Assembly: GCA_001603505.1 (NCBI GenBank)
Contig: LUZC01000025.1
Span: forward strand, 1-42,502
Length of the DNA: 42,502 nt
Direction: 5' to 3'
Origin: Bacteroidales bacterium Bact_11
Lineage (GTDB): Bacteria; Bacteroidota; Bacteroidia; Bacteroidales; UBA932
The position numbers and the translations under genes are program-made. Shown here one piece after another: positions 34,362 to 42,502 of this stretch. The notes under the pieces were generated by a model that saw only the letters and a list, made by a program, of their open reading frames with translations, ran no database searches and was not told the DNA's origin. How positions within the stretch are numbered: position 1 is the first letter of the stretch; every line of letters begins with the position of its first letter.

Positions 34362-35201
34362 ATGACCCTTCGCGAATTCGTCGAATCCTGCGTTACCCGC
34401 CTTGCTCCGCTCTATCCGGCGGCCGAGGCAAAAGCCATCGCTTTCCGCCTGCTAGAACATTTTACCGACATCCCTTCCTATAAGTATATCTCCGAGCCCG
34501 AACTGGAGATTCCCGGCTTGACCGGGGATCTCATGCCCGCGCTGGCGGACCTGGCCACCGGCCGTCCCCTCCAATACGTCCTTGGTTTCACGGAGTTCTG
34601 CGGACATCGTTTCAAGGTTCGCGAAGGCTGCCTGATACCTCGTCCGGAAACGGAGGAACTGGTGTCGCGCATCGTGGACGACCTGTCCGGCACCGAAATC
34701 GGCGACGAGCCGTTCAATATCCTTGACCTCTGCACCGGGTCCGGCTGCATCGCCTGGTCGCTGGCGGCCGAATTCCCCGAGGCCATGGTCTATGGCTGCG
34801 ACCTGTCGGACGCCGCCCTCGGCATCGCCTGCAGGCAGCGTGTAAAGGTCGGCGGTGCCAAGCCTGTCTTTTTCTTGGCCGATGTGCTGGCGGCGCCTCC
34901 TGGCGGTCTGCCCAGGTTCGATGTCATCGTATCGAATCCGCCGTACATCTGTGAAAGTGAAAAGGCGTCGATGCGGCGCAACGTGCTCGATTTCGAGCCG
35001 GCCGAGGCACTCTTCGTCCCCGACGACGATCCGCTGCGGTTCTACCGCGCCATCGCCCGATGGGCCGATGCTCTTCTCCGACCCGACGGCCACATCTACA
35101 TGGAAATCAACGAGCGCTTCGGTCCCGCCGTCGCCGCCCTGTTCCCCGGAAGCCGGATTCTTCAGGACATCAACGGCAAGGACCGTTTTATTGTCCGCTG
35201 A
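34362..35201 (+). CDS. prmC: Peptide chain release factor N5-glutamine methyltransferase
   Basis: 279 residues. N-terminal helical domain, then GCLIPRPETEELVSRIVDDL near 95, SAM motif I LDLCTGSGCIAWSLA near 124, and the catalytic SNPPYICESE near 190. It methylates the Gln of the GGQ motif in RF1 and RF2. It follows ddl by 15 bases. Residues 49-57 (EIPGLTGDL) are encoded by a 27-base hairpin identical in its core to the one at the ddl stop. Length is normal, so that stretch replaces rather than adds residues. Confidence 0.93.
   Translation: MTLREFVESCVTRLAPLYPAAEAKAIAFRLLEHFTDIPSYKYISEPELEIPGLTGDLMPALADLATGRPLQYVLGFTEFCGHRFKVREGCLIPRPETEELVSRIVDDLSGTEIGDEPFNILDLCTGSGCIAWSLAAEFPEAMVYGCDLSDAALGIACRQRVKVGGAKPVFFLADVLAAPPGGLPRFDVIVSNPPYICESEKASMRRNVLDFEPAEALFVPDDDPLRFYRAIARWADALLRPDGHIYMEINERFGPAVAALFPGSRILQDINGKDRFIVR
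34506..34532 (+). repeat. Palindromic repeat copy 2 inside prmC
   Basis: GAGATTCCCGG (34506-34516), loop CTTGA, CCGGGGATCTC (34522-34532): 11-bp stem with one G-T pair. Shares ATTCCCGGCTTGACCGGG with copy 1. Confidence 0.7.
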
Positions 35202-35227: not shown

Positions 35228-35527
35228 TCAGTGAAGGTAGCTGCGGAGCGCTTCGACGTAGGCTTTGAAGGCTTCGCGTCCATGGTCGGTGATGCGGCAG
35301 ATGGTCTGCGGTTTCTTGCCGTTGAAGCACTTCGAGACTTCGATGTAGTCTGCTTGCTGCAGCTTGTCGATCTGGACGCTCAGGTTGCCGGAGGTAGCCC
35401 CTGTCTGCGCCTTCAGGAAGACGAAGTCTGCTTCCGGGACGCCGAGGAGGATCGACATCACCGCGAGGCGGAGCTCCGAATGGAGCAGCGGGTCGAGCGG
35501 CTGGAAGGATTTGACAGTCTCGTTCAT
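35228..35527 (-). CDS. Winged-helix transcriptional regulator
   Basis: 99 residues. HTH_34/ArsR-like winged helix: LLHSELRLAVMSILLGVPEA (helix 1), FVFLKAQTGATSGNLSVQID (helices 2-3, recognition), then a wing KCFNGKKPQTICRITDHGRE. This small type is usually coupled to a membrane protein gene in Bacteroidota. Here it lies 6 bases after a six-helix protein in the same unit, suggesting self-regulation of that pair. Signal unknown. It ends 26 bases from prmC. Confidence 0.85.
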   Translation of the reverse strand: MNETVKSFQPLDPLLHSELRLAVMSILLGVPEADFVFLKAQTGATSGNLSVQIDKLQQADYIEVSKCFNGKKPQTICRITDHGREAFKAYVEALRSYLH

Positions 35528-35533
35528 GGCTCG

Positions 35534-36148
35534 TTATTTCGCAGTTTTTTTCTGGAAAATGATGCCCGGGACGATCAGGGCGATGACGCCCAGGATGGCG
35601 AAGCTCAGGATCTGGAGAGGCGAACCATCCGGAACGAGCAAAACGAGCAACACGGAAAGGGCGGTAGCGACGCAGGCGGCAGCCGACACGGATTTCATCT
35701 TCATCACTGCACCCGAAATGGCGCCGCAAAGGCCCATCATCAGCGCGATGATCAGGGTGAGATGGATGGTCATAACCACCTCAGTGTTTTTTGCGTAGAG
35801 AATCAGCGCCGTCACCCAGAGCAGGGCGTAGAGGCCGATCGAGAAGATGCCGAACCATTTCCAGATGCAGCCCAGAATGCGCTTGGTTTCGCTCTCAGGT
35901 ACTTTTTCCCGGTTGCGTGTAATGAGCATGGTTCCGAAGGCGCCGATGGCGGTCATCGCGAACCAGAGGAGATTCCACATCGGAGTGCCGGTCTTTGTCC
36001 AGAGGGCCCAGATGACGACAGAGGTGAGGGTGACGAGGCATCCCCAGAGGATGAGGGGTTTGCCTGTATTCTTCGCAATCGCGTTGCGGCTGCGTTCGAT
36101 GGTCTCCGCAATCAGACGAAGGCTGTTTTCTGCTGACAGGTTTTCCAT
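35534..36148 (-). CDS. Six-helix membrane protein paired with the regulator
   Basis: 204 residues. N-terminal 30 residues hydrophilic and helical (ENSLRLIAETIERSRNAIAK), then six hydrophobic segments at about 32-50, 58-77, 95-117, 122-147, 153-172 and 177-197, in pairs with short loops. No catalytic or channel motif recognised. Stop 6 bases before the regulator ATG. Promoter and a 100-base leader with a hairpin upstream. Real by codon use, topology and operon; function unknown. Confidence 0.78.
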   Translation of the reverse strand: MENLSAENSLRLIAETIERSRNAIAKNTGKPLILWGCLVTLTSVVIWALWTKTGTPMWNLLWFAMTAIGAFGTMLITRNREKVPESETKRILGCIWKWFGIFSIGLYALLWVTALILYAKNTEVVMTIHLTLIIALMMGLCGAISGAVMKMKSVSAAACVATALSVLLVLLVPDGSPLQILSFAILGVIALIVPGIIFQKKTAK

Positions 36149-36286: not shown

Positions 36287-36344
36287 TTATTTTCAAAAAT
36301 ATTTACTGCCGGCTACAAAACCGCCCCCGAACGTGGCCGGGACA

Positions 36345-36365
36345 CCCGCTCAAGTCGGGCAGGAC
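36345..36365 (-). repeat. Degenerate palindromic repeat copy 3
   Basis: Minus strand GTCCTGCCCGACTTGAGCGG then GT: about 17 of 21 positions match the copy at the ddl stop with its upstream GTC, and loop CTTGA is kept. Lies 20 bases from the 39-bp inverted repeat. Confidence 0.45.
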
Positions 36366-36386
36366 GAAAAGGGACGTCGGCAGGCG

Positions 36387-36425
36387 TCAGATTGTCAGTT
36401 CTTCCCCTTCCGAGTGGGCAATGAT
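36387..36425 (-). repeat. Inverted copy of the symporter 3' end (39 bp)
   Basis: On the minus strand this equals 42421-42459 at 38 of 39 bases (33 in a row identical); it would encode IIAHSEGEELTI and a TGA stop. No symporter coding sequence precedes it: the acyltransferase stop TAA (36427-36425) is directly adjacent. Remnant or inversion scar. Confidence 0.85.
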
Positions 36426-37696
36426 TACGCCAGTCCCGGGCGGCAGGGTTTGCCGATGGAGCGGCGGTAGGCGAAGTAGAGTTCTTCGGTGGCGAGGGCC
36501 ATCTTCGTGACGGAGCAGCCCGGAACCTTCGGGTAGGTGTACCACGTGTCAGTCAGCGTGTTGAGATCCACGCAGTCGCCCCATTTTCCCAGATAGTTGT
36601 ATTCGATGTGCACGGAATAGGCCGCCGGTACGGGGATGTCCATCGTGTGTTCCCGGCCCAGCAGGTCCTTCACGCGGACGCGGAACCCGTTCATGTCGTG
36701 GATCATCGTGCCCTTTCCCAGCGGGATGAAAGCCTTGGAGTTGGGCAGCGAGCGCACTTCGACGGGCAGTTCCCCTGTGGAATAGGTTCCCGCCTCTACT
36801 TCGGCACGCACGTTGGCGCGTTCCCATTCATACCAGTCGGGCACGTGCGAGAATTCAGTCTCTCCCTCCGAAGCGCTCAATTCGCCGTTCGGCGCCATGG
36901 TCCAGCGCTTGCCGCAGTACTTGCAGTAGAGGTCGTTGCCTTCGGAAGCCATCTCGTATTCTGTGCCGCAGTGCGGGCACTGGTAAAGCACACGCTCCAG
37001 CCCTTCGGACCGCTTCCCGAAGCGCATCTGCAGCCCCTTCTCCCGCAGCCAGGCGAAATCGTCGTACCGGAAGGCCGCCACCAGATTGTCGTTGATCTCG
37101 TCGACTGTCTTTTCCGCCAGCTGCTCAGGCGTGAACAACAGTTTGAAATCGGCTTCCGTGGGCTTGATGCCCCGGGAACGCAGGTTCCAGAACGGGGAAT
37201 TCACATGATGGCCGTGGCAGATGAACGTGGCCACGGGCACTTTCAGCATCTTGCACAACTTGCCTAGCGACTCCGGGAGTACCGCGGTCGTGCCGCAGAG
37301 CGAATAGCGTGCCTCCGGATAGATCACTGCGATGTCGCCGTTTTCAATGACCCGTGCCAACTGCCGCACCAGCGTCACGTCGGACGTGAACTTGCGCTTG
37401 CAGATGGCGCCCACGTTGCGCAGCAGCCACTCCCGTCCGATGAACCCGTCGATGGCCACCACGTAGTTGGCCCGTCGCGGGAAGATGGCCTTGGTGAGCA
37501 CCTTGAAGTCCATGAATGCGTTGTGGTTGCTCAGCAGCAGGAACGGCGGCTTGAGGTCGCGGGTGCCTTCGTAGTGGATATGCGTGTTGTGCACCATGAC
37601 GGCAGGGACGCTGAGCAGATAGGTCAGCGGCCGCAGGAACCAGCGGGTCCGCACAGGCGGACGTGACATGTCGAAGCGGGGCGTTTCGTCGGTCAT
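36425..37696 (-). CDS. 1-acyl-glycerol-3-phosphate acyltransferase-like protein with zinc ribbon
   Basis: 423 residues. PlsC-type domain at about 20-210: catalytic H-x4-D in LLSNHNAFMDF near 57, then VIYPEARYS near 128. From about 240 comes a rubredoxin-like zinc ribbon, CPHC ... CKYC, and a C-terminal domain of unknown type (about 300-423) that is not part of ordinary PlsC. It probably acylates a lysophospholipid or related acceptor. Starts 15 bases after radA. The stop codon abuts, by one base, a stray copy of the symporter end, so the C-terminus may have been altered by a rearrangement. Confidence 0.85.
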   Translation of the reverse strand: MTDETPRFDMSRPPVRTRWFLRPLTYLLSVPAVMVHNTHIHYEGTRDLKPPFLLLSNHNAFMDFKVLTKAIFPRRANYVVAIDGFIGREWLLRNVGAICKRKFTSDVTLVRQLARVIENGDIAVIYPEARYSLCGTTAVLPESLGKLCKMLKVPVATFICHGHHVNSPFWNLRSRGIKPTEADFKLLFTPEQLAEKTVDEINDNLVAAFRYDDFAWLREKGLQMRFGKRSEGLERVLYQCPHCGTEYEMASEGNDLYCKYCGKRWTMAPNGELSASEGETEFSHVPDWYEWERANVRAEVEAGTYSTGELPVEVRSLPNSKAFIPLGKGTMIHDMNGFRVRVKDLLGREHTMDIPVPAAYSVHIEYNYLGKWGDCVDLNTLTDTWYTYPKVPGCSVTKMALATEELYFAYRRSIGKPCRPGLA

Positions 37697-37711
37697 AAAT
37701 CGGCGAGAGGA

Positions 37712-39112
37712 CTATTGGAAGAGTTTCCGGCAGAGCGCGGCGATGTCGGCCACGGGCGTCACGGTGATGCCGCCTGCCTTCTTGTCGCGCTTGGCGAAGG
37801 AAGATTCCTTGTTGAAAGAGGATATGTAGATCTGTTCGAATCCGAGTTTTTCCGCTTCGGCGATGCGGCGCTCCACTTGGCTCACGGGACGGATTTCCCC
37901 GCTGAGTCCTACCTCGGCGGCAAAGCAGACCTTCGGCGAGATATATAGGTCGAAGTTCGAGGAGAGGATGGATGCCACGATGGCCAGGTCGCAGGCGGGA
38001 TCCGACACGCGCAAGCCGCCGGCGATGTTGAGGAACACGTCTTTGGCGGCCAGCTTGAAGCCGGCGCGCTTCTCCAGCACGGCCAGCAGCATGTTGAGCC
38101 GGCGGCCGTCGAAGCCCGTGGCCGAACGCTGTGGTGTGCCGTAGGCGGCGGTGCTCACCAGCGCCTGGATCTCGATGAGGAATGGTCGCGTGCCGTCCAT
38201 CATGGCGGCGATGGCGATGCCGGAAAGGTCGTCCTGATGCATCGGGATGAGGATTTCCGAGGGATTGCGTACTTCGCGCAGGCCGGTGCCGGTCATTTCG
38301 AATACGGCCAGCTCGTCGGTCGAACCGAAGCGGTTCTTGATGCTGCGCAGGATGCGGTAGGAGCCCTTGGTGTCGCCTTCGAACTGCAGTACCACGTCGA
38401 CAATGTGTTCGAGGACTTTCGGTCCGGCGATGGTGCCGTCCTTGGTGATATGGCCGATGAGGATCACGGGCGTGCCGCTCTCCTTGGCATAGCGCAGCAG
38501 TGACGAGGCGCATTCGCGCACCTGCGACACGCTGCCTGCCGAAGAGTCGAGCGCCTCGCTGTAGATGGTCTGGATGGAATCGACGATCAGCAGGGCGGGC
38601 TTCACTTCACGGGCTTGTGCAAGGATGTTTTCGAGCACAGTCTCGCTCAGGATGAAGCAGTCTTCGTCGGAACCGCCGAGCCGGTCGGCGCGGAGCTTGA
38701 TCTGCTTGGGGCTCTCCTCGCCCGAGACGTACAGTGTCTTGAGGTTCTTGCAACAGAGTGGAATCTGGAGCGAAAGCGTGGATTTTCCGATACCGGGCTC
38801 GCCGCCGATGAGAACCATGGACCCTTCCACCAGGCCGCCGCCGAGCACACGGTCGAGTTCTCCGATGCCGACGGAAAAACGATTGTCGCGCGACAGGTCG
38901 ATCTCGCGGAGCCGCGTCGGCTTTGCATCGGATGCGTCGATGTAGGCGCGGGAACGGCCGGCCGCAGATCCGCCTCCCGAAGAGGATTTCGGGGCCTTCG
39001 GCTCCTCCACCATCGTATTCCATTCACCGCACGCGGGGCACCGCCCCATCCATTTTGCACTCTCGTTTCCACACGACGTGCAATACCACACGCTTTTGAT
39101 CTTGTTTGCCAT
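37712..39112 (-). CDS. radA: DNA repair protein RadA
   Basis: 466 residues. N-terminal zinc finger C-x2-C...C-x2-C (WYCTSCGNESAKWMGRCPAC), RecA core with Walker A GEPGIGKST near 95 and the RadA motif KNRFG near 265, and a C-terminal Lon-like domain with SGEIRPVSQVERRIAEAEKL. It promotes branch migration in recombination as a hexameric helicase. ATG at 39112 lies 4 bases from its promoter box. Complete. Confidence 0.96.
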   Translation of the reverse strand: MANKIKSVWYCTSCGNESAKWMGRCPACGEWNTMVEEPKAPKSSSGGGSAAGRSRAYIDASDAKPTRLREIDLSRDNRFSVGIGELDRVLGGGLVEGSMVLIGGEPGIGKSTLSLQIPLCCKNLKTLYVSGEESPKQIKLRADRLGGSDEDCFILSETVLENILAQAREVKPALLIVDSIQTIYSEALDSSAGSVSQVRECASSLLRYAKESGTPVILIGHITKDGTIAGPKVLEHIVDVVLQFEGDTKGSYRILRSIKNRFGSTDELAVFEMTGTGLREVRNPSEILIPMHQDDLSGIAIAAMMDGTRPFLIEIQALVSTAAYGTPQRSATGFDGRRLNMLLAVLEKRAGFKLAAKDVFLNIAGGLRVSDPACDLAIVASILSSNFDLYISPKVCFAAEVGLSGEIRPVSQVERRIAEAEKLGFEQIYISSFNKESSFAKRDKKAGGITVTPVADIAALCRKLFQ

Positions 39113-39116
39113 ACGA

Positions 39117-39145
39117 CAAATGTAAGAAAAAAATTGCTATCTTTG
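39117..39145. promoter_or_regulatory. Divergent promoter boxes of radA and malQ
   Basis: Minus-strand TACATTTG (39124-39117), 4 bases from the radA ATG (probably leaderless), and plus-strand TATCTTTG (39138-39145), 20 bases from the malQ ATG at 39166. 13 bases separate the boxes; neither has a clear -33. Confidence 0.6.
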
Positions 39146-39165
39146 TTTGATTAGATTTTCTCTCT

Positions 39166-41196
39166 ATGGAAACGTTGACCATCAAAACCATCGGGCCGTG
39201 GATGCGGCACGGCGAACAAATCCTGCTGACGGGAAGCTGCCCCGCTCTGGGCGGCTGGGACCCCGCAAAAGCGCTGCCCATGACAGTGCAGCAGGGCATC
39301 CTCTGGAGCATCGAACTCGACAAGGCCTCCCTTCCGCAATTTTTTGAATACAAATTCATCTGCAAGGAAGCCGACGGCACCTATACCTGGGAAACCTGCT
39401 TCAACCGAACCGACCCTTACGCCGTCACCGAGACCACATTCCCCCATCAGCATCCCCGCTACGCCGGTACGGCGATTCCGGTGTTTTCGCTCCGGAGCTG
39501 TCACTCATCGGGCATCGGCGACTTCGCCGACATCAAGTTGATGGTCGACTGGGCCGCCGCCACGGGCCAGGCCGTGCTGCAGTTGCTACCGGTCAACGAC
39601 ACCACCTCCACCAAGACGTGGACCGATTCCTATCCTTATGGCGGCATCACCATCATGGCGCTGCATCCCGTGTACCTGAACCTGCAGGACATCGGCCCGC
39701 TCCGCGACAAAGATGCCCAGGCCGCGTTCGACAAGGAAGCCGCAGAACTCAACGCCCTGCCGCAGCTCGACTATGAACGCGTGTTCTCGCTCAAGGAACG
39801 TTATGTGCGCGCCATCTTTGCCCAGAAAGGCACCCGCACCATGGGCAGCAAGGCTTTCAAGGCCTTCCTGGAAGCCAACCGAGAGTGGCTGATGCCCTAC
39901 GCGGCCTTCTGCGTGCTGCGCGACCGTTTCGGGACGGCCGATTTCTCGCAGTGGAAACGCCTGAAGAAATACAGCGCCGCCGGCGTGTCCCGGCTCTACG
40001 GTGAAGCCAAAGCCGAGATGGACTATTACATTTTCGTGCAGTATCATCTTGACCGCCAGCTCCGCGATGCGCATGATTATGCCCGCAAGAAGGGTGTGGC
40101 GCTCAAGGGTGACATCCCTATCGGCATCACGCCTCACAGCGTCGAGGCCTGGGCAGAGCCCGAATATTTCAACATGGGCGAACAGGCAGGCGCTCCGCCG
40201 GATGCTTTCGCGGTGGATGGTCAGAACTGGGGCTTCCCGACTTACAACTGGGACCGTATGGCCCAGGACGGCTATGCCTGGTGGAAGCGCCGCTTCCGCA
40301 AGATGGCCGAATATTTCGACGCCTATCGCATCGACCATGTGCTGGGCTTCTTCCGCATCTGGGAAATCCCCGTGCCTTACAAGTCGGGCTTGATGGGCCA
40401 TTTCAGCCCGGCGCTGCCTTTCTCCGTGGATGAACTGCGCTGGAGGGGCTTCTATTTTGATGAGAACCGCCATGCACGTCCCTATGTGGGCGACGACCCG
40501 CGCGAAGTGCTGTTCGTGGAAGATCCGGTGCAGAAAGGCATGTGGCATCCCCGTATCAGCGCCCAGTACACGCGCAGTTACGCCGATCTGCAGCAGTGGG
40601 AGAAAGATGCCTACAACCGTCTCTACGATGAATTCTTCTATACCCGAAACACCGAATTCTGGCGCGAACAGGCCATGCGCAAGCTGCCCGAACTGATCGG
40701 CGCCACCAACATGCTTACCTGTGCGGAAGACTTGGGCATGATTCCGGCCTGCGTGCCGGAAGTCCTTTCCGACCTGCACATCCTCTCGCTGGAGGTGCAG
40801 CGGATGCCGAAGGATCCCAAGCAGATGATCGGTAATCCTTCCGAGTATCCGTACATGAGCGTCTGCACCACGGGTTCCCACGACACCAGCACCCTCCGTG
40901 GCTGGTGGGGCGAGAACCACGACGGCGAAGACTGCCCTGTCGAGACATGCCAGTGGATTGTGGCCGAGCACCTGTATTCGCCTTCGATGCTCACCATCCT
41001 GCCGCTGCAGGACTGGTTCTCCGTCGAGCCGTCGCTCCGCGTAGCCGACATCGCCGGCGAACGCATCAATATCCCGGCCAACCCCAAGCACTATTGGCGC
41101 TGGCGGATGCATCTCACCCTCGAAGAGATGATCGCGAACAAGCCGTTCTGCGAGAAAGTGTCTGAGATGGTGGCGCAAAGCGGAAGACAGGCATAG
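39166..41196 (+). CDS. malQ: 4-alpha-glucanotransferase with CBM20 (GH77)
   Basis: 676 residues. A starch-binding CBM20 at about 1-95 (GSCPALGGWDPAKALPM; PQFFEYKFICKEADGTYTWE), then GH77: QLLPVNDTTS near 142, nucleophile Asp in AYRIDHVLGFFRIWEIP, acid/base Glu in CAEDLGMIPACV, and GSHDTSTLRGWW. It transfers glucan chains between maltodextrins. Many Bacteroides homologues carry two CBM20 modules and are near 890 residues; here there is one. Three bases before the symporter gene. Confidence 0.92.
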   Translation: METLTIKTIGPWMRHGEQILLTGSCPALGGWDPAKALPMTVQQGILWSIELDKASLPQFFEYKFICKEADGTYTWETCFNRTDPYAVTETTFPHQHPRYAGTAIPVFSLRSCHSSGIGDFADIKLMVDWAAATGQAVLQLLPVNDTTSTKTWTDSYPYGGITIMALHPVYLNLQDIGPLRDKDAQAAFDKEAAELNALPQLDYERVFSLKERYVRAIFAQKGTRTMGSKAFKAFLEANREWLMPYAAFCVLRDRFGTADFSQWKRLKKYSAAGVSRLYGEAKAEMDYYIFVQYHLDRQLRDAHDYARKKGVALKGDIPIGITPHSVEAWAEPEYFNMGEQAGAPPDAFAVDGQNWGFPTYNWDRMAQDGYAWWKRRFRKMAEYFDAYRIDHVLGFFRIWEIPVPYKSGLMGHFSPALPFSVDELRWRGFYFDENRHARPYVGDDPREVLFVEDPVQKGMWHPRISAQYTRSYADLQQWEKDAYNRLYDEFFYTRNTEFWREQAMRKLPELIGATNMLTCAEDLGMIPACVPEVLSDLHILSLEVQRMPKDPKQMIGNPSEYPYMSVCTTGSHDTSTLRGWWGENHDGEDCPVETCQWIVAEHLYSPSMLTILPLQDWFSVEPSLRVADIAGERINIPANPKHYWRWRMHLTLEEMIANKPFCEKVSEMVAQSGRQA

Positions 41197-41199
41197 GCC

Positions 41200-42459
41200 A
41201 TGGCAGAGACAGGGAAGAAGAAAGGGCTTGCCCTGCACTGGCAGATCCTCATCGGCATCGGCCTGGGCATCGTGGCGGGCATCATGCTCTGCAAGATCTG
41301 GCCCTACGAGGAGTGGTCGAAGTACATCAAGTGGGCGGGCGACATCTTCCTGCGCGGCCTGCGGATGATCGTCATTCCGCTGGTGTTCACCTCCATCGCG
41401 CTGGGCGTGGCGGGCATGGGCAATTCCGCCGCACTGGGCCGCATCGCCGGCAAGACGCTGCTGTATTACATCGTCACCACCGTGATTGCCGCCACCATCG
41501 GCCTGACGCTGGTCAATCTCGTCAAGCCGGGTGTGGGAGCCAGCCTTAACCTTGCTGAAAAGGTTGCTTCTGTGGGTTCGGGAAACGTGTCGTTCATCGA
41601 CCAGATCGTGTCGATCGTTCCGTCGAACATCTTCGAGTCGATGGCCAAGGGCGACCTGCTGCCGGTCATTTTCTTCGCCGTCATTTTCGGTTTTTTCATG
41701 AACAAGGTGGATGCGAAACATACGGCTACGCTCTCCAACCTGTTTACGGCTATCTACGAAGTGATCATGAAGATTACCTTCTTCATCATCCGTCTGGCTC
41801 CGTTCGGTGTGTTCGCCATCGTCACCAATGTGGTGGGCAAGCAGGCGGGCAATCCGCAGGCGCTGCTGAGCATGGCCGGTTCACTCGGCGTGTTCGTCCT
41901 TGTGGTCTGGGGCGGTCTGCTGATTCAGGGCGGTATCGTGCTGCCGTTGCTGGTGCGGACGTTGGGCCGGCAGAACCCATGGCGGCATATTTCGAAGATG
42001 TCCACAGCGTTGCTGACGGCATTCTCCACCTGTTCATCGGGCGCAGCGTTGCCCATCAACATCCGCGATTCGCAGGAGAAATGCGGCATATCGAACAAGA
42101 TCGCCAGCTTCGTCCTGCCGCTGGGCAGCACCATCAACATGAACGGAACGGCGCTCTATGAATGCGTGACGGCCATCTTCATCGCCCAAGCCTACGGTAT
42201 CGACCTGTCGCTGGCCCAGCAGGTGATGATTGTCTTCACGGCGCTGCTGGCCGCCATCGGCACGGCCGGTATCCCGATGGCCGGGATGGTGATGCTGACC
42301 ATCGTCCTGACGGCAGTGGGCCTGCCGCTCGAAGGCATCGGCTTGGTGCTGGCTGTGGAGCAGCTATGCGACATGCCGCGCACCTGCATCAACACCTATG
42401 GTGACTCCTGCGGCGCTGTCATCATCGCCCACTCGGAAGGGGAAGAACTGACAATCTGA
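41200..42459 (+). CDS. Dicarboxylate/amino acid:cation symporter (DAACS)
   Basis: 419 residues, about eight membrane helices plus two hairpins. Family motifs: FSTCSSGAALPINIRDSQ (HP1, serine-rich), LPLGSTINMNGTALYECVTA (TM7), GIPMAGMVMLTIVL (HP2) and LCDMPRTCINTYGDSCGAV (TM8, with Asp and Arg for substrate). It takes up glutamate, aspartate or C4-dicarboxylates with sodium or protons; which one is not decidable. Follows malQ by 3 bases. Its final 39 bases exist a second time, inverted, at 36387-36425. The stop abuts the last codon of a convergent gene. Confidence 0.92.
   Translation: MAETGKKKGLALHWQILIGIGLGIVAGIMLCKIWPYEEWSKYIKWAGDIFLRGLRMIVIPLVFTSIALGVAGMGNSAALGRIAGKTLLYYIVTTVIAATIGLTLVNLVKPGVGASLNLAEKVASVGSGNVSFIDQIVSIVPSNIFESMAKGDLLPVIFFAVIFGFFMNKVDAKHTATLSNLFTAIYEVIMKITFFIIRLAPFGVFAIVTNVVGKQAGNPQALLSMAGSLGVFVLVVWGGLLIQGGIVLPLLVRTLGRQNPWRHISKMSTALLTAFSTCSSGAALPINIRDSQEKCGISNKIASFVLPLGSTINMNGTALYECVTAIFIAQAYGIDLSLAQQVMIVFTALLAAIGTAGIPMAGMVMLTIVLTAVGLPLEGIGLVLAVEQLCDMPRTCINTYGDSCGAVIIAHSEGEELTI
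42421..42459 (+). repeat. 39-bp inverted repeat, functional copy in the symporter
   Basis: The 3' end of the symporter gene (IIAHSEGEELTI and TGA). Matches the minus strand at 36387-36425 except for one C/T third-codon-position difference. Confidence 0.85.
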
Positions 42460-42501
42460 TTAGTCTTGCGTGGTCTGAATCAGGCTCACCTGGATTCCTT
42501 T
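42460..42501 (-). CDS. C-terminal 13 codons of an unidentified gene
   Basis: On the minus strand, entering from the right edge, the frame AAA GGA ATC ... reads KGIQVSLIQTTQD then TAA at 42462-42460. The stop touches the convergent symporter stop, in keeping with other gene ends here. Too short to identify. Confidence 0.45.
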   Translation of the reverse strand, partial: KGIQVSLIQTTQD

Positions 42502-42502
42502 G

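Follow-up and report, generated by a model that had tools for sequence, protein, structure and literature searches.

A 39-bp inverted duplicate of a symporter 3′ end beside a radA-malQ-symporter block found in both orientations in a genus of Bacteroidales

Introduction

The genome of Bacteroidales bacterium Bact_11 (GCA_001603505.1) contains a 6-kb gene block flanked by two inverted copies of the 3′ end of a symporter gene, one copy being the end of the gene itself. How did the other come to lie, inverted, at the opposite edge of the block? An earlier note on the window (the whole analysed stretch of 42,502 nucleotides, contig LUZC01000025.1) had proposed two readings: the scar of a past inversion with staggered breaks, where fill-in duplicates the ends, or a segment that still inverts by recombination between the copies.

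Both readings have counterparts. Phase-variable invertible DNA of Bacteroidales consists of a segment between inverted repeats; the window differs in that its repeat arms are the coding end of a gene and the genes at the edges are the same after a flip. Work on a Thermus strain has used the term duplications associated with inversion and cites H. pylori and Thiomonas as additional examples in which genes were born or lost at inversions (PMC8963470), and DNA duplication associated with inversion has also been named for H. pylori (PMC4671568). The probable scar at our locus would belong to this known kind. The matches listed in a search of literature titles and abstract starts held no description of the block or of its flipping. 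The locus would offer a small, datable example of a bacterial inversion without pre-existing repeats, in which a tiny duplicate serves as the fingerprint.

The repeat pair and its junctions

The window is the entire contig C25 of a 105-contig genome that is 81% complete. The features at its right end are:

34362..35201, plus strand: prmC, the left landmark that adjoins the block in relatives (TIGR03534, hemK_fam)
35228..36148, minus strand: winged-helix (HTH) gene (PF13601) and membrane-protein gene (no Pfam match)
36305..36386, no strand: GC-rich spacer, from the upstream region of the membrane gene to copy 1
36387..36425, minus strand: copy 1, duplicate of the last 39 bp of the symporter gene, non-coding except at the one base that also closes the acyltransferase stop
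36425..37696, minus strand: acyltransferase (PF01553)
37712..39112, minus strand: radA (TIGR00416)
39166..41196, plus strand: malQ, 4-alpha-glucanotransferase with CBM20 (PF02446, PF00686)
41200..42459, plus strand: dicarboxylate/amino acid:cation symporter (PF00375)
42421..42459, plus strand: copy 2, the symporter's own final 12 codons and TGA stop
42460..42502, minus strand: 3′ end of a metallophosphoesterase gene (PF00149), which runs on into contig C53

The claimed match between the copies was confirmed: minus-strand 36425-36387 and plus-strand 42421-42459 are identical at 38 of 39 positions, 33 of them uninterrupted, and the match includes the symporter TGA. The sole mismatch in the 39-nt core is ATC/ATT, at the third position of an isoleucine codon. 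A repeat finder (seed 14, minimum 22) extended the arms to 36387-36428 and 42418-42459 (42 nt, 95%); this pair is the longest among four such repeats in its list for the window. By chance, the window would be expected to contain ~3e-11 exact inverted 33-mers, and the 39-nt pattern with up to 3 mismatches occurred at two sites, exactly the two copies, and not at all in 100 shuffles. No third copy of the 39-bp repeat was found in the 1.88-Mb assembly (81% complete), where contig C53 carries 17 bp of the arm, and the exact 33-mer had no match in a viral sequence collection. A dispersed repeat was ruled out, as the assembly holds two copies only.

The gene order described between the arms, with acyltransferase and radA on the minus strand and malQ and the symporter on the plus strand, also stood, and recombination in silico inside the arms left symporter and acyltransferase whole with their stops kept, as had been claimed for both orientations. 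One detail was corrected: copy 1 had been placed one base from the acyltransferase stop and instead overlaps it, the TAA at 36427-36425 sharing its last base with the first base of the repeat.

Contig C25 stops 43 bp beyond copy 2, and the last 60 bp of the window are the exact end of contig C53, 17 of these bp lying inside the arm. Owing to this identity, the right junction, at which the symporter TGA abuts the metallophosphoesterase stop, is read on two contigs; the gap between the two stops is zero, and the homology between the copies ends at the same point. Past the phosphoesterase gene, C53 continues with a C26-peptidase-like and then a serine-hydrolase-like gene (our names, given without a family search), which belong to the distal flank in relatives.

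These junctions bear on two alternatives. An assembly or binning artefact at one of them is very improbable: the assembly is fragmented and incomplete, as would suit such an error, but the 60 bp shared by the contigs exceed the 33 bp of exact repeat, and the same order (radA to prmC, symporter to distal flank) was assembled in 7 other genomes. We also think it improbable, if less so, that RecA-type recombination between the 39-bp arms keeps inverting the segment at present, the second reading of the earlier note. The 33 bp of uninterrupted identity and the intactness of symporter and acyltransferase either way suit such a process. Repeated switching at the species scale (below) is the part of that reading that stood. 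Against inversion today, the assembly reads straight through copy 1, where two orientations present at comparable depth would be expected to break the contig; the C53 overlap begins inside the arm, at 42443, rather than at the edge or mismatch, where a mixed junction would be expected to branch; and copy 1 already differs by one base.

The block lies in two orientations among relatives

We surveyed 40 genomes of the genus, including that of the window, and found radA in 38 and prmC in 39; the symporter was detected in 54 of 61 genomes (37 of the genus), with distant homologues counted. Forty stretches were fetched from 37 relatives. The radA-malQ-symporter block lies between prmC and a common distal flank (Y, Yp1, C26 and serine hydrolase) in two orientations, which we designated S (symporter beside prmC, radA beside the distal flank) and R (radA beside prmC). 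Twenty genomes could be oriented strictly, 12 as S and 8, including the window, as R:

S genomes: G007, G003, G028, G027, G011, G030, G036, G032, G015, G018, G023, G034
R genomes: G008, G024, G004, G001, G002, G033, G026, window

Comparison of gene order, which had been suggested as a check, therefore found both orientations in relatives and not one alone. Some placements used one flank (the distal flank for G015, G018 and G023; prmC for G028 and G030), G034 was oriented by joining two contigs, each of which ends in malQ, and the window by joining C53 through the 60-bp overlap. G002 and G030 carry the block without malQ. Eighteen relatives were left out before the count, comprising those with the symporter beside prmC but radA non-adjacent or on another contig (G022, G013, G031, G016, G010, G029, G019), G063, which is S by its distal flank and was left unlabelled, and those that could not be oriented (G014, G017, G020, G061, G062, G005, G035, G025, G006, G021).

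The older order predicted for the window, with the symporter next to the HTH operon, was recovered in part. The arrangement prmC-(HTH-membrane gene)-symporter-malQ-radA exists, with the HTH/membrane pair present in G034 and absent from other S genomes. In G034 the winged-helix/membrane-gene pair sits between prmC and the symporter, in the order prmC-HTH-membrane gene-(Y1-like gene)-symporter. The prmC of the window scored 196.0 bits against TIGR03534, slightly below the cut-off of 199.1, and passed the cut-off of hemK_fam.

Two further features of the locus varied. The cargo behind radA is a ybaK-like gene, a pqiA-like gene (both our own names) or neither in relatives, and the acyltransferase in the window. 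In G027 (L126), the C26-Yp1-Y group beside the S block is turned round with respect to the serine-hydrolase gene, which makes a second inversion at this locus.

Orientation has switched repeatedly at the species scale

To place the orientations on a phylogeny, we used a tree of concatenated RadA, symporter, PBP1, TopA and MalQ proteins with 32 rows, 20 of them labelled. Orientation changed 5 times on this tree, with 4 changes forced by well-supported branches and 5-6 changes across bootstraps; looser labelling (27 rows, quick tree) gave 6 changes, 5 of them forced. Shuffled labels gave a mean of 6.5 changes, and 68-70 of 500 shuffles were as low as the real labels, so that orientation is hardly clustered on the tree. 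Removing the window still left 5 changes; the tree alone is thus no proof of a flip on the branch of the window, and it neither supports nor opposes a common origin of the R state of the window with that of the G001/G004/G008/G024 clade. Local controls were constant: the relative orientation of topA, pbp1 and prmC was the same in all 17 relatives showing topA and prmC, and topA kept its orientation with respect to its left neighbours in 7 of 7 stretches showing them.

Repeated switching of the block at the species scale, seen against controls that are local to the locus, is the more interesting and unexpected result. Recurrence across the genus amounts to a natural replicate experiment on flip-prone sites (3′ gene ends, palindromes, single-strand transposases) and also bears on whether repeats cause flips or flips create repeats.

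The duplicate is young and specific to the window

Copy 1 matches the window's own symporter end at 38 of 39 positions and the symporter ends of 34 relatives, none of them a near sister, at 23 to 34 of 39. An inverted second copy of a genome's own symporter end (at least 30 of 39) occurred in the window only, among the fetched stretches of 35 genomes, some of which fall short of the whole block. At four-fold sites, the symporter agrees with the six relatives measured at only 51-65%. Since agreement at these sites is so low and copy 1 is closest to the window's own symporter end, the duplicate arose in the lineage of the window and is far more recent than the divergence from any of the species sampled. 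The position and direction of copy 1 are those expected of the symporter end in the S orientation, on the side of the HTH and membrane genes.

A probable inversion that duplicated one end

We think it probable, on balance, that an inversion in the lineage of the window duplicated the symporter end, as a DNA duplication associated with inversion. Before the flip, the symporter would have lain beside the HTH/membrane-gene pair, pointing to prmC, and radA and the acyltransferase would have occupied the opposite end of the block. The whole acyltransferase-radA-malQ-symporter block would then have inverted, with a left break at about the last 39 bp of the symporter that was staggered or copied during repair, so that the 39 bp both remained on the left flank (copy 1) and moved along with the symporter (copy 2). 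At the other end, the break would have fallen at the acyltransferase stop. As both ends of the block are 3′ ends of genes, no gene would have been damaged. For the first reading of the earlier note, the past inversion is thus well supported, as relatives occur in both orientations, while the staggered breaks with fill-in fit the anatomy and would be one way to produce it, as would copying by repair or a copy that predates the flip.

Several observations point to such an event. First, the block lies in opposite orientation between the same flanks, and sequence from one breakpoint is found inverted at the other. Second, the homology stops precisely at the symporter/phosphoesterase junction, as a single new junction would give. 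A single inversion whose left break was staggered, or was copied during repair, accounts for the side, direction, extent and youth of the duplicate, and we infer that duplication and flip were a single event. Against this, the Y1-like gene of G034 parts the membrane gene from the symporter, and the exact junction predicted was not seen. The acyltransferase is also specific to the genome of the window among those searched, and its arrival could have produced the duplicate.

This last point leads to another explanation, which we regard as unlikely: an inverted duplication without a flip, in which the block was already R, insertion of the acyltransferase beside radA copied the 39 bp as templated filler, and the repeat might later permit inversion by homologous recombination. 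The R order could be inherited, judging from the tree, and the acyltransferase, whose 3′ end adjoins copy 1, is a sporadic gene: none of the other 39 genomes searched in the genus held a full-length relative. A search of the 40 genus genomes (E 0.001) matched 5, namely the window's own gene and four partial matches of 25-26% identity over about 110-120 residues. Among the matches listed (80 loci), relatives at 67-87% were mostly titled Bacteroidales or Clostridia. CxxC pairs, noted by eye, suggest a zinc ribbon in the protein. Carriage of a symporter remnant along with the acyltransferase was rejected: 26 of the 80 loci were inspected downstream, one being cut by a contig end, and 0 of 25 showed a symporter end after the stop (by eye).

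The left junction leaves room for the filler copy, because the spacer beside copy 1 (36305-36386) gave no usable alignment to relatives, the sequence downstream of the symporter in the S relatives included. No second copy of this spacer turned up in the genome, where the next-best match had E 0.085; the match of G034 to the window stops near 36305. A filler copy, however, leaves to chance both the S-type direction and side of copy 1 and a homology that ends exactly at the stop/phosphoesterase junction. In addition, the segment unlike that of relatives (acyltransferase and phosphoesterase in place of Y genes and, where present, ybaK) is contiguous in S, whereas an ancestral R order needs two replacements. 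The latter argument is weak, in that no fetched locus has phosphoesterase and acyltransferase together; joint import of the two was rejected on the same observation.

The preferred reading, an inversion with a duplicated end, can be set beside described systems. It shares with DNA duplication associated with inversion in H. pylori an inversion with DNA duplicated at its ends (PMC8963470, PMC4671568). The duplicate in the window differs from the H. pylori cases: it is 39 bp long, creates no new gene and sits at the edge of a block whose orientation changes repeatedly within the genus. In Drosophila, inversions by staggered breaks likewise leave the inverted arrangement with breakpoint sequence duplicated in opposite orientation, which has been interpreted as filled-in overhangs or as repair (PMC7584159); here the setting is a bacterial chromosome, the segment is 6 kb and the duplicate comes from a single breakpoint. 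A two-step model for H. pylori, in which illegitimate recombination is proposed to form the inverted repeats first and inversion follows later, shares the inverted repeat around a segment found both ways in relatives and lends some weight to the filler copy (PMC3046158). The order of events is fixed in that model, while either order is compatible with the window.

Other inverted arms at the borders of the block

Two genomes, G033 (R) and G036 (S), share 98-99% DNA identity over long matching pieces yet carry the block in opposite orientation. The reversed segment comprises the symporter, malQ, radA and a small pqiA-like gene, and the switch lies at the block ends. An inverted 87-bp double palindrome with arms 96.6% identical bounds the switched segment in G036; separate copies of the element elsewhere match at up to 82% over most of its length, and it is low-copy. 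Inverted copies of one element thus bound this switch, as homologous recombination between pre-existing inverted repeats would have it. G033 carries a Y1-like gene between two palindromic elements (~90 bp) at one block end and a remnant, identified by eye, at the other. The 87-bp arm of G036 (L133 9625-9711, 14979-15065) starts at the symporter stop TAG, where its sister G033 has TGA followed by other sequence; each junction therefore provides its own stop. Contig C105 of another bin, G018, again shows the prmC side of the R order of G033, with the Y1-like gene at 97%. This contig (L190) closely matches G033/G036 and holds a second radA besides that on C81 of the same bin; it is probably a contaminant.

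G004 has a 34-bp palindrome a few bases past the symporter stop and past the radA stop. Its 30-base pattern with up to 3 mismatches occurs at those two sites only in the genome, and a 19-bp part of it occurs once more, beside the radA copy. Inverted repeats that bound the block, lack another close copy and are mutually unrelated were thus seen in three genomes (the window, G004 and G036). Strong, well-separated inverted repeats were present in 5 of the 40 fetched stretches (700 kb), all at borders of block genes, in a scan biased by stretches centred on the block. They flank the whole block in G004 and G036, radA in G011 and G023 (in G023 with a Y1-like gene) and malQ-symporter in G025, whose contig stops within the second arm. 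With laxer settings, 20 of the stretches gave weaker pairs elsewhere too, for example in G034 and G018.

Six genomes have Y1-like genes at a block border: G033, G018 (on the extra contig), G023, G028, G034 and G013, where the gene lies 0.7 kb after radA by coordinates. An NHVH motif was invariant in all 8 aligned proteins, Pfam Y1_Tnp matched 6 of the 8 below its cut-off, and weak PDB matches (E 0.15-0.16) were all three labelled transposase. From these features the border genes appear Y1-transposase-like; 'RAYT' is our own label for them. Homologues of the G033 protein occur in 31 of the 40 genus genomes, with up to 8 per genome, and none was found at E 0.001 in the genome of the window (G000, 81% complete). 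REPtrons are TnpA-REP or Y1-like genes flanked by palindromes (PMC6006769), which the G033 gene between ~90-bp palindromes and the six genomes with a border Y1-like gene resemble; the genome of the window differs in having no Y1-like homologue, and the G036 elements differ in being low-copy. A REP/Y1 element as the cause in the window was not supported, the arms occurring twice only and no Y1-like homologue being found at E 0.001.

More tentatively, and with rather less than even confidence, we consider the block an inversion hot spot of the genus. It would flip repeatedly, with flips or their repair leaving at both ends fresh, unrelated inverted duplicates that lack another close copy in the genome (the window with 39 bp, G004 with 34 bp and G036 with 87 bp) and with Y1-like genes drawn to or acting at its borders, and would be tolerated since it is self-contained. 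Such tolerance may come from the gene 3′ ends at both edges and the divergent starts inside.

The neighbouring prmC, which borders the switching block, also varies. Relative to the prmC of the window, in-frame inserts of 10-109 aa are carried by G003, G004, G007, G010, G011, G013, G016, G018 C105, G024, G028, G032, G033, G034 and G036. They recur after window residues 52 and 114, and G013 and G016 have a further insert after residue 263. Several of the inserts are made of palindromes, one of them of the CGTCATTCCGGGCTTGACCCGGAAT type, and these resemble the Rickettsia palindromic elements.
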